A DNA stretch of 64,000 bases from Robertmurraya massiliosenegalensis JC6 (GTDB taxonomy: Bacteria > Bacillota > Bacilli > Bacillales > Cytobacillaceae). The notes beneath the pieces were generated by a model. That model was not told the origin of the DNA, did not search any database, and was given only the letters and a program-made list of their open reading frames with translations. Position numbers and translations under genes: made by a program. Location of the stretch: positions 324,293-388,292 of the forward strand of contig NZ_HE978512.1 of assembly GCF_000311725.1 (NCBI RefSeq), read 5' to 3'. Positions 26,545-56,330 of this stretch are shown in pieces; within the stretch, counting starts at the first letter, position 1, and every line of letters starts with the position of its first letter.

Positions 26545-26707
26545 GTGACGTCCCCCAACATATGTCATAATCTGTCTCTTCCATTTTACAACAATATATG
26601 GAAATCGGCACGTAATTGCTAGAATTGATGGAAATTAGTTCGAAGGATGTGGAGCTATGTCATATTTAAGGGAAGATTGGGGAAAAACGACTACTGATTT
26701 TGGGAGG

Positions 26708-26875
26708 ATTGCGGGCGTTTCGGGGGTAATTGCGGGCGTTCTAGCCATGATTGCGGGCGTTTATGGGATAATTGCGGGGGTTCTAGCCGCGATTGCGGGC
26801 GTTTCGGTGTTTATTGTGCACCTTCTCGACGTAATTGCGGGGGTTTCGGTGTTTATTGCGGATCCCGCAGATGCT
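26708..26875. repeat. Eight-unit intergenic array, exact 21-bp period
   Basis: ATTGCGGGCGTT or close variants start at 26708, 26729, 26750, 26771, 26792, 26813, 26834 and 26855: exactly 21 bp each, two helical turns. Units 6 and 8 are degraded (ATTGTGCA, ATTGCGGATCC). Because 21 is a multiple of three, a plus-strand frame (26657-26944) reads through as heptads of IAGVxxx, with GGATGTGGAG before its ATG; this frame runs into the glutamate symporter gene on the other strand, and I do not call it a gene. Confidence 0.85.
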
Positions 26876-37948: not shown

Positions 37949-38191
37949 AAGTAAAAGCTCCTTTCAAGTATTTTGGAATTTGACCTCAATTACGGTCTGA
38001 TGTTAACATGCCCAAAAAATAGAAAAAACTTGCATCCTCATTTGAAAATTTTATTGCATCACGATAAGGACACTCCCAAAAAAGACTTATATTCATTTAT
38101 TATCGGAATTTTGGGTCCAAAATCTCTTACAATCGGAGTACCTAGGGGGTACTGGCGCCAAACTTCTTCTTAAATAAGACCTCTGATTTAG

Positions 38192-38305
38192 ATATATCGG
38201 CGATTTTTGAGATATATCGGCGAAAATTGGATTTTATCGGCGAAAAACGAGATATATCGGCGATATTCTGATTATATCGGCGAAAAAACAAATATATCGG
38301 CGAAA
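38192..38305. repeat. Six-unit intergenic array, exact 20-bp period
   Basis: ATATATCGGCGA-type units with TATCGG at 38195, 38215, 38235, 38255, 38275 and 38295, exactly 20 bp apart. The core TATCGGCGATA is an interrupted palindrome. It lies about 26 bp past the fabZ terminator. The rest of 37949-38191 shows no gene or clear signal. Confidence 0.85.
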
Positions 38306-53828: not shown

Positions 53829-54052
53829 GGACATACTCCTCCTTTTTCACGCTAACACATATTATAGCATTCGTAAGTTCACCTTTCTATTTGACGTATA
53901 AGTAGCAAAAAGGTTTCATTTGGTTTTATTTTTTTATTTTATTGGGAGCGATTATCGCTGTTGGTTAGGAATTGGTAAGGTACTCATTGGGTTATGGTTT
54001 TTGTTAGGATGGATGCTTAATTTGGAGTGAAATCCCTTGGGTTTTTTGTTTT

Positions 54053-54632
54053 GTCCGAATAAGTGTTCTATTCGGACTGACATCCCTTAAAGTTTGCTCG
54101 TTTTGTCCGAATGCCCTCTCTATTCGGACTTGAACCACTTGGTGCTCACGCCTCTTGTCCGAATAAACCTTCTATTCGGACTTGAACCACTTGGTGCTCC
54201 CTCTTCTTGTCCGAATAACCTTTCTATTCGGACTAAATCCACTTTGTGCTTCCGCCTCTTGTCCGAATAACCCTCCTATTCGGACTTGAACCTCTTGGTG
54301 CTTCCGTCTCTTGTCCGAATAACCCTTCTATTCGGACTTGAACCACTTGCTGCTCCCTCTTCTTGTCCGAATAAACCTTCTATTCGGACTAAAACCATTT
54401 GCTGCTTCCGCCTCTTGTCCGAATAAACCTTCTATTCGGACTAAAACCACTTGGCGCTTCCGTCTCTTGTCCGAATAAACCTTCTATTCGGACTTGAACC
54501 ACTTGGCCTTTGCTCGTTTTGTCCGAATGCTCTCTCTATTCGGACTAAATCCATTTGCTGCTTCCGCCTTTTGTCCGAATAACCCTTCTATTCGGACTAA
54601 ATCCACTTGGCCATTCCTCGTTTTGTCCGAAT
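54053..54632. repeat. Twelve-unit intergenic hairpin array, exact 52-bp period
   Basis: GTCCGAAT starts at 54053, 54105, 54157, 54209, 54261, 54313, 54365, 54417, 54469, 54521, 54573 and 54625, always 52 bp apart (close to five helical turns). In units 1-11 the complement ATTCGGAC follows 17 bp later, giving an 8-bp stem with a 9-nt loop. Unit 12 lacks the right arm. The 27-nt linkers are related (TGAACCACTTGGTGCT type) but vary. It lies between nuoN and ywzB, about 80 bp past the nuo terminator. No gene is supported in 53829-54712. Confidence 0.95.
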
Positions 54633-54712: not shown

Positions 54713-54747
54713 AAAAAAAGAAGGGGCTCCCTTTCCCCTTCTTTTTC
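54713..54747 (-). terminator. Terminator of the nuo operon
   Basis: AAGAAGGGG/CCCCTTCTT, 8-nt loop, T7 on the minus strand. It lies about 65 bp past the nuoN stop. Confidence 0.9.
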
Positions 54748-54809: not shown

Positions 54810-56330
54810 TTATTGAAATCCTCCGAAGTTCGTGTGGAAGAAGTCGAGGGCGATGTTTGGAAAGAGTCCAAATACGATCGTTGCCACGACACAAATTCCA
54901 ATCGCTATGCCAACGCCAACCGGTATTTTCATTTTCTCTACTTCCCCTTCTTCTGGAGATGGTCTAAAGAACATTTGCGTTAAAATGCCGAAGTAGTAGA
55001 AATAAGATACCACGGTTGTGGCAATCATAAGTGATGCTAGAATATAGTGCGCTGGTTCAGATACTAATGCGCCGATGAAAATGTTTAGCTTTCCGATGAA
55101 TCCGGCTGTTCCCGGAATCCCTGCTAATGAGAGGATAAAGATTCCCATTGTCACCGCAAGCAATGGCGTCCGTTTGTACATTCCAGCAAACTGACCAATA
55201 TCCTCGATGTCATTTTTAGCAGTCATCAATTGAATGACAGCAAAAGCTCCAACGTTCATGAAGAGATACGCTCCTAAGTAGAACCATACCGTTTCAAACA
55301 TAAAGGCTGACATCGTCGTTACAGCAACTAACAAATAACCTGCATGAGCAATACTAGAATAAGCAAATAAGCGTTTTATGTTTCGCTGTCTTAAAGCAAC
55401 AACATTTCCAATTACCATTGTTACACCTGCTAAAACAGCGATATAATCTTGCAATTTGAATAGGAGTGGTGTAACTGAATCGACACCAGTCGCTCCAGAT
55501 TGTGTATTGGCAAAAACGACAACGACAATTCGGATTAAAATGACAAATCCTGCTGTTTTCGACACAACGCTTAAGAATGCAGTAACTGGAGTTGCGGCTC
55601 CTTGGTACACGTCTGGTGCCCACATATGAAATGGAGCGGTTGCCAGTTTAAAGGAAAGACCGACCAAGATCATGAAAAAGGCAAGACCCATTAAATAGCT
55701 AAACTGAGAATTATTCAATTGCGGTAGAATATTCGTCATTTCCGCTAAATTGGTTGTCCCCGTAATTCCGTAAAGATAACTCATCCCAAATAATGTGACC
55801 GCTGTGGCAATACTGCCATTAATGACGTATTTCATTGCTGATTCATTGGAAGGAAGATGCTTTTTCCGAATTCCAGCTAATATATAGGAGGACAAGGAAA
55901 GCAACTCTAAGCCCACAAATAAAGTAATTAAGTCGCCACTTGAAGCCATGATCATCGTTCCGAGCAAGCCTGCTAATAAAAGATAGTAGAATTCCCCTTT
56001 AAACTCTTCCATCCCTTCTTTTGGCTTGTAGCTTATGGCAAGGAGCAAAATTAAGGCTGCCCCGATGAGTAAGAGAAGCTTAAACACTTTGGCAAATGGA
56101 TCAAGTTTAAACGTATCGTATAGAATGGAAACCGTATCTAAAGCCAATAAATTCAGTAATGCGGCAATTGCTGCAAGGATACCTGCGAACCCTACCCAAC
56201 CGAGAATTCTTCGGTCAAAATGCTTTGGTGCAAAAAGGTCTACAATTGATAAAATGGTCGCCACTCCAAGGATGATAAACTCTGGTGCCATTGCTCCCCA
56301 TTGAAATGATAAAAGTGTATCTAGATCCAT
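54810..56330 (-). CDS. nuoN: NADH-quinone oxidoreductase subunit N
   Basis: 506 residues, about fourteen hydrophobic segments, antiporter-like (proton_antipo_M) fold with the conserved lysines in YVINGSIATAVTLFG and HMWAPDVYQGAATPVTAFLSVVSKTAGF. It forms one proton channel of complex I. Last gene of the operon, 4 bp after nuoM, followed by a terminator. Confidence 0.96.
   Translation of the reverse strand: MDLDTLLSFQWGAMAPEFIILGVATILSIVDLFAPKHFDRRILGWVGFAGILAAIAALLNLLALDTVSILYDTFKLDPFAKVFKLLLLIGAALILLLAISYKPKEGMEEFKGEFYYLLLAGLLGTMIMASSGDLITLFVGLELLSLSSYILAGIRKKHLPSNESAMKYVINGSIATAVTLFGMSYLYGITGTTNLAEMTNILPQLNNSQFSYLMGLAFFMILVGLSFKLATAPFHMWAPDVYQGAATPVTAFLSVVSKTAGFVILIRIVVVVFANTQSGATGVDSVTPLLFKLQDYIAVLAGVTMVIGNVVALRQRNIKRLFAYSSIAHAGYLLVAVTTMSAFMFETVWFYLGAYLFMNVGAFAVIQLMTAKNDIEDIGQFAGMYKRTPLLAVTMGIFILSLAGIPGTAGFIGKLNIFIGALVSEPAHYILASLMIATTVVSYFYYFGILTQMFFRPSPEEGEVEKMKIPVGVGIAIGICVVATIVFGLFPNIALDFFHTNFGGFQ

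Follow-up and report, generated by a model that had tools for sequence, protein, structure and literature searches.

Within the window, the whole 64,000-nucleotide stretch of DNA analysed here, a tandem array of inverted arms lies in the gap between nuoN-like and ywzB-like genes (Table 1). The array is flanked by the nuo operon terminator and a promoter-like site before ywzB, in agreement with the placement given in the first-pass annotation, and the gap should be transcriptionally quiet. The left arm, GTCCGAAT, begins at positions 54053, 54105 and so on to 54625, with every spacing equal to 52 bp by direct reading and by script, while the right arm, ATTCGGAC, stands 17 bp after the start of GTCCGAAT in the first 11 units, the 12th consisting of a left arm alone. 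Both the 12 evenly spaced left arms without slippage and the 11 right arms had been claimed previously, and we confirm them; TRF likewise calls the array (54103-54632) with 0% indels. When the 11 full units are aligned, 25 of the 52 columns carry substitutions, 0 of the 16 arm columns vary, and there are 0 indels. The stem is 8 bp long, as had been stated, because its outer pair is T/T (TGTCCGAAT...ATTCGGACT), whereas relatives usually end in GACA and form a stem of 9-10 bp. The array thus reads GACT where the anchor shared by its relatives is GACA, and agrees with that anchor at 7 of its 8 letters. It is intergenic, its period is not divisible by three, and the ORFs inside it are all shorter than 60 aa.

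Table 1. Features of the nuo-ywzB locus and of the 52-bp array (window coordinates).
Feature	Position	Strand	Remarks
ywzB-like flanking gene, 80 aa	53592..53834	-	Name from the first-pass annotation; orthologues adjoin the nuoN relative in 7/7 congeners
Promoter-like site before ywzB, TAGAAA-17-TATAAT	53861..53889	-	About 160 bp from the array; consensus match only
Probable degenerate right half-dyad, ATTTGGAG	54020..54027	.	Tentative; at the other array end, before the first unit, and 2 bp off the register
First complete 27-bp dyad, TGTCCGAATAAGTGTTCTATTCGGACT	54052..54078	.	Followed by ten more in 52-bp steps, ending with 54572-54598
Array: left arm GTCCGAAT x 12, right arm ATTCGGAC x 11	54053..54632	.	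Exact 52-bp period; a terminal left half-dyad after 11 full dyads
First 25-bp linker	54079..54103	.	Linkers variable, length constant
Terminal left half-dyad, TGTCCGAAT	54624..54632	.	Array stops at a dyad centre
Intrinsic terminator of the nuo operon	54715..54746	.	T-runs on both strands; between nuoN and the array; kept in all 7 congeners
nuoN-like flanking gene (NADH dehydrogenase subunit)	54810..56330	-	Name from the first-pass annotation and place in the cluster

Subirana and Messeguer described the 52-nt tandem repeats of Bacillus as having a constant size, a "species specific" sequence and an unknown function (PMC8161180), and the window array is a member of this known, unexplained class. 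The class is recognised by four or more units of constant length (51-53 nt), by a non-coding location, by several arrays per genome of equal length and differing sequence, and by short signals that occur with their reverse in one repeat. Correspondingly, the window array has 12 arms at exactly 52 bp, is non-coding, is one of about ten in the source genome, and pairs GTCCGAAT with ATTCGGAC. Both the sister arrays and the published class had been overlooked in the first-pass annotation. In the 4.96-Mb source genome, the window-type dyad occurs 83 times, versus 0 for a reversed control pattern, mostly in the roughly ten arrays, which share the 52-bp period and have other loops and linkers. Two arrays at separate loci (G000:C3:146589-147081 and G000:C3:585765-586101) have a nearly identical unit, a sign of recent dispersal.

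Across the 193 genomes of the family, the window arms occur in tandem in 36 genomes from 11 genera, nearly always at 52 bp (among the cases measured, 52 in 166, 53 in 13 and 51 in 1). The TGTC/GACA palindrome is common to the window array and several supposedly unrelated published repeats, which leads to the prediction of TGTC-N19-GACA tandems. With a core pattern consisting of TGTC-N19-GACA, then 15-35 bases, then TGTC-N19-GACA again, we find such repeats in 138 of the 193 genomes and 17 of the 25 genera, a single genome giving up to 632 matches; the reversed pattern gives 3 in total. The core matches listed have, with few exceptions, a span of 79, equivalent to a period of 52. The published species specificity, which is an observation in that paper rather than part of the definition, therefore does not hold for either the arms or the core. 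Three-unit arrays appear, among the matches listed, in Mesobacillus, Neobacillus, Cytobacillus, Litchfieldia, Evansella, Ureibacillus, Heyndrickxia, Trichococcus and other Bacillota, and in a phylum-wide sample 2 of 398 genomes match, both of the source's own family. Arrays are also present in records named Chryseobacterium sp. ISL-80 (L110, L160, L180 and L181) and Sedimentibacter sp. SX930 (L142), genus names unlike Bacillaceae, and these records are probably mislabelled or contaminated. One complete genome of genus g15 (G081) has zero TGTC dyad arrays, compared with 60-632 matches in most of its complete congeners, and is a natural knockout for a partner-gene search. A phage origin of the arrays was rejected, as the three-unit pattern matches 1 viral contig among 2.9 million; that contig (IMGVR_UViG_3300007759_000741, L101 3519-3649) carries AAAATGTCTA...TAGACATTTT dyads at 52 bp and could be of phage origin or host flank.

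Beneath sequence that appears variable, the arrays share a dyad of 27 bp, bounded by TGTC and GACA, with inverted arms of 10 bp forming the stem and a 7-nt centre or loop. The anchor letters are demanded by the search pattern and were hence excluded as evidence of pairing. Among 46 arrays represented by one consensus each, covariation is seen in the arm pairs that lie 4-9 bp away from the dyad centre (z 3.2-7.6 versus shuffled columns), although z-scores against shuffles are upper limits, since the arrays have common ancestry and their independence is overstated. In 127 arrays, the arms pair exactly, beyond the A/T-G/C class, with AT, TA, GC and CG all in use, and the central seven bases are unpaired.

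Covarying arms with stems of 8-10 bp and loops of 7-9 nt are what would be seen if the arrays were transcribed as hairpin RNAs and acted as a sponge, a small-RNA precursor or a scaffold for RNA and protein, a role proposed for the B. coagulans satellites, which are reported to be transcribed and have reads in RNA-seq (PMC8625621). Against this, the mismatches give no sense-strand G.U signature (106 G.T versus 89 A.C; 20 versus 15 arrays), the absence of strand preference being what a role at the DNA level predicts. Many arrays lie beyond a terminator, the window array is held between a terminator and a promoter-like site, the window has no Rfam match at gathering score, and the linker rhythm described below would be left without a reason. 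We consider an RNA role quite improbable. A tRNA identity was rejected, none being found.

The A/T content of the arrays oscillates with a period of 52/5 = 10.4 bp. Over 127 array consensuses, measured at the 44 positions left free by the search pattern, harmonic 5 reaches z=14.6 per array and z=32 coherently, compared with 3.1 and 7.2 for the next-highest harmonic. Linkers taken alone give a coherent z of 15-17 at 10-10.8 bp, and 80 non-redundant linkers (<60% identity) fall in one common phase (resultant 0.61, p about 2e-13). An independent set of 27 published consensus repeats from other species peaks at the same 10.4 bp (z=10.8, other periods at most 2.6). The signal is far weaker in non-coding DNA outside the arrays, where its power is 0.262 versus 0.217 when shuffled, as against 0.629 versus 0.250 within them. 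Relative to the dyad, A/T-rich positions lie at about 5-7, 16 and 26 bp and G/C at 0, 9-10 and 20-23, and the linker centre is A/T-rich across relatives. By itself, the window array is borderline for this rhythm (p=0.061, top harmonic 6), and the linkers of the source genome alone show a weak phase (n=9, resultant 0.54). The 10.4-bp period implies that 52 bp corresponds to five helical turns. Static curvature from A-tracts was rejected, as the intrinsic curvature barely exceeds that of shuffles (36.5 versus 31.7 degrees per unit in a wedge model); with so little curvature predicted, the rhythm reflects bendability rather than a static bend, and any bending must be protein-induced.

Two further tandem arrays in the window belong to the published 20-21-nt class: one at 26707-26861 with a 21-bp unit (ATTGCGGGCGTTT...) and an A/T rhythm peaking at 10.4 bp, and one at 38186-38305 with a 20-bp unit (ATATATCGGCGAAAA core) and an A/T rhythm at 10 bp. 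As a separate feature, the linkers of the 127 arrays are strongly skewed between the strands in purine/pyrimidine content (sd 0.19 versus 0.10 expected), in a direction independent of the flanking genes.

The proposition that length is held more tightly than sequence proves to be general: in a set of 82 arrays, the spacing is exactly 52 in 513 of 539 cases and the dyad measures 27 bp in 592 of 599, alongside 3030 substitutions from the array consensus. In the flanks of orthologous loci, we count 43 substitutions versus 7 gap events. The ratio of substitutions to indels is thus about 117:1 within the arrays, against about 6:1 in the flanks, a rough comparison in which the flank sample is small and duplicated units are counted repeatedly. 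The arrays nonetheless turn over quickly. The same locus in two close species may hold 9 versus 17 dyads, or similar counts with interior units swapped; interior units are homogenised by species and end units are older, while some orthologous loci are empty. When seven congeners are compared at the nuoN-ywzB locus, the array is intact solely in the window genome; three congeners have none, one is doubtful, and the two nearest retain decayed remnants only. An array is therefore not needed at this locus, and single arrays are dispensable. Frequent indels in related strains, which the first-pass annotation had named as a refuting observation, do not occur in intact arrays.

Such turnover is as expected if the arrays were a non-functional satellite spread by unequal exchange, in which 52 bp persists through whole-unit copying without selection on spacing; the variable unit numbers, the species-wise homogenisation with older ends, and the decayed or bare loci all fit. 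A satellite does not account for the sharing of 52 bp, 27 bp, TGTC/GACA and the A/T phase by arrays with unrelated linkers and different arms, for the compensatory changes in the arms, or for the same rhythm in published repeats of other genera. The excess of substitutions over indels relative to flanks also weighs against a satellite, within the limits of the small flank sample and the recounting of copied substitutions. On balance, we regard this reading as possible but somewhat unlikely. Of the two explanations offered in the first-pass annotation, selection on a spacing of about five turns is supported, well past what the window alone could show, by the recurrence of 52 with unrelated linkers and loops and by the 10.4-bp A/T period, and "very regular copying" occurs too.

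The boundaries of the arrays are informative about the unit. Moving outward from the last complete dyad, similarity is 0.70 of the interior level in the linker and 0.60 in the near arm of the next dyad, and then falls at the dyad centre (0.53 at position 38, 0.36 at position 39 and 0.30 in the far arm), on both sides of the array. Arrays thus tend to stop at dyad centres on both sides, and the window array likewise ends in a half-dyad, which points to a structural unit running from dyad centre to dyad centre with the linker in its middle. Such a unit fits, as expected, a footprint spanning adjacent dyad centres.

Tyrosine-recombinase and attC sites consist of inverted arms of 9-13 bp around a core of 6-8 bp, and attC sites are variable in sequence and yet foldable, which the arrays recall. 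With its 10-bp arms and 7-bp centre, the dyad falls within this geometry, and its role as a core site, with the arrays being tandem insertions joined at dyad centres, would agree with where the arrays end. None of the four filled/empty orthologous pairs, however, has a precise join at a dyad centre: in three, extra flanking DNA is lacking as well, and one retains about one unit, so that precise insertion is not supported in these four pairs. With no recombinase or other gene recurring beside the arrays, and their near-absence from viral contigs (1 match), a recombination site is highly improbable.

With respect to gene orientation, the 60 arrays for which both flanks are known occupy 38 tandem, 18 convergent and 4 divergent gaps, versus 153, 46 and 63 in the comparison set. 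Divergent gaps, which hold promoters, are avoided (4/60 versus 63/262, p=0.002) and convergent gaps are mildly enriched (p=0.047), and in a crude scan a terminator precedes the array at 50 of the 83 gene ends that face one. A location after gene 3' ends combined with avoidance of divergent gaps could suit a transcription insulator, in which back-to-back hairpins block read-through both ways. We find this very unlikely: the hairpins are without a regular T-run, a fixed 52 bp would be unneeded, and the nuo operon has its own terminator, conserved in congeners that have no array.

We propose instead that the arrays are helically phased platforms of double-stranded DNA for wrapping, a reading that we place at about even chances, because a fixed phase, a symmetric anchor, a location on the 3' side of genes and a free sequence are combined in them. 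That they act at the level of double-stranded DNA through phased bending is, in our estimation, an equally balanced matter. In such an arrangement, each 52-bp unit would make five turns of B-DNA, and the 27-bp dyad and A/T-rich linker centre would come to lie on fixed faces of the helix, giving a continuous one-way bend around a protein. This putative protein would be widespread, would wrap one unit per 52 bp, and would read TGTC/GACA directly and the remainder by shape. A shape-reading protein alone would not demand exact complementarity of the arms, which counts against wrapping. The likely role would be chromosome-wide, either in handling supercoils or in the architecture of the nucleoid behind transcription units, and not in regulation of nuo or ywzB.

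Candidates for the wrapping protein would be DNA gyrase first and an abundant nucleoid protein second. The E. coli gyrase motif has a phased 10-bp G/C rhythm with 35-52 bp wrapped per GyrA C-terminal domain, and gyrase is enriched in BIME-2 palindrome arrays (PMC6379681). By this analogy gyrase in particular may be the binder, an assignment that we nevertheless judge unlikely. Extra HU paralogues were rejected in this role, with genomes of the array-rich genus g15 having one HU gene each and those of the array-free g21 having 1-7, and HU copy number does not track array number. No recurrent partner gene was found beside the arrays, where the recurring ORF clusters are array-derived ORFs, common enzymes and transporters. 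Gyrase and HU are near-universal and the arrays are patchy, so some other factor must govern gain and loss.

More broadly, and more tentatively, with the balance somewhat against it, the 52-nt and 20-21-nt satellites of Bacillota may share one structural code, in which DNA keeps phase with the helical repeat (5 x 10.4 and 2 x 10.4 bp), is anchored by TGTC-N19-GACA in the 52-bp class, and is wrapped by protein, one unit after another, into an ordered body like a nucleosome array behind transcription units. On this view, wrapping reads helical phase, which would keep length conserved, and it reads shape, which would leave sequence free. If a wrapping protein exists, many soil Bacillaceae would carry architectural elements at hundreds of sites per genome, comparable to enterobacterial BIME-2. 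Even without wrapping, TGTC-N19-GACA with a 52-bp period serves as a simple signature for cataloguing arrays, and the shared dyad and helical rhythm make the 52-bp class testable.

Among known systems, CRISPR arrays resemble the window array in their evenly spaced palindromic repeats; they have unique spacers, whereas window-type arrays have linkers that are near-copies within an array and number about ten per genome, and a CRISPR identity was rejected on this ground. The BIME-2/REP elements of enterobacteria, which have a partner RAYT transposase in the genome, resemble the window arrays in being intergenic palindrome arrays close to the 3' ends of genes. PMC3733652 defines the REP/BIME tag as GTAG or CGTC at the hairpin foot; the window arrays have TGTC/GACA as the conserved foot instead, and differ further in their fixed 52-bp period and in phylum. 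BIME-2 is bound by gyrase, and the presence of gyrase at window-type arrays would follow by analogy only. The 20-21-nt repeats of Bacillus, two of which lie in the window, are close to whole turns (2 x 10.4) and share a strong 10-10.4-bp A/T rhythm with the 52-nt class, from which they differ in core sequences and in having a shorter unit. The closest likeness is to the 52-nt Bacillus repeats, which match the window arrays in the 51-53 nt unit, the non-coding location, the multiple differing arrays, the signal with its reverse, and the fast turnover between strains. GTCCGAAT is missing from the text of PMC8161180, although the B. oceanisediminis consensus given there holds part of it. The papers on this class describe no cross-species conservation and give no reason for 52, and the shared anchor, helical phasing and dyad-centred ends appear to be undescribed in its literature, a J Bacteriol 2020 paper aside; here, in contrast, the arrays are united by shared arms, a common core, a 10.4-bp rhythm and ends at dyad centres.
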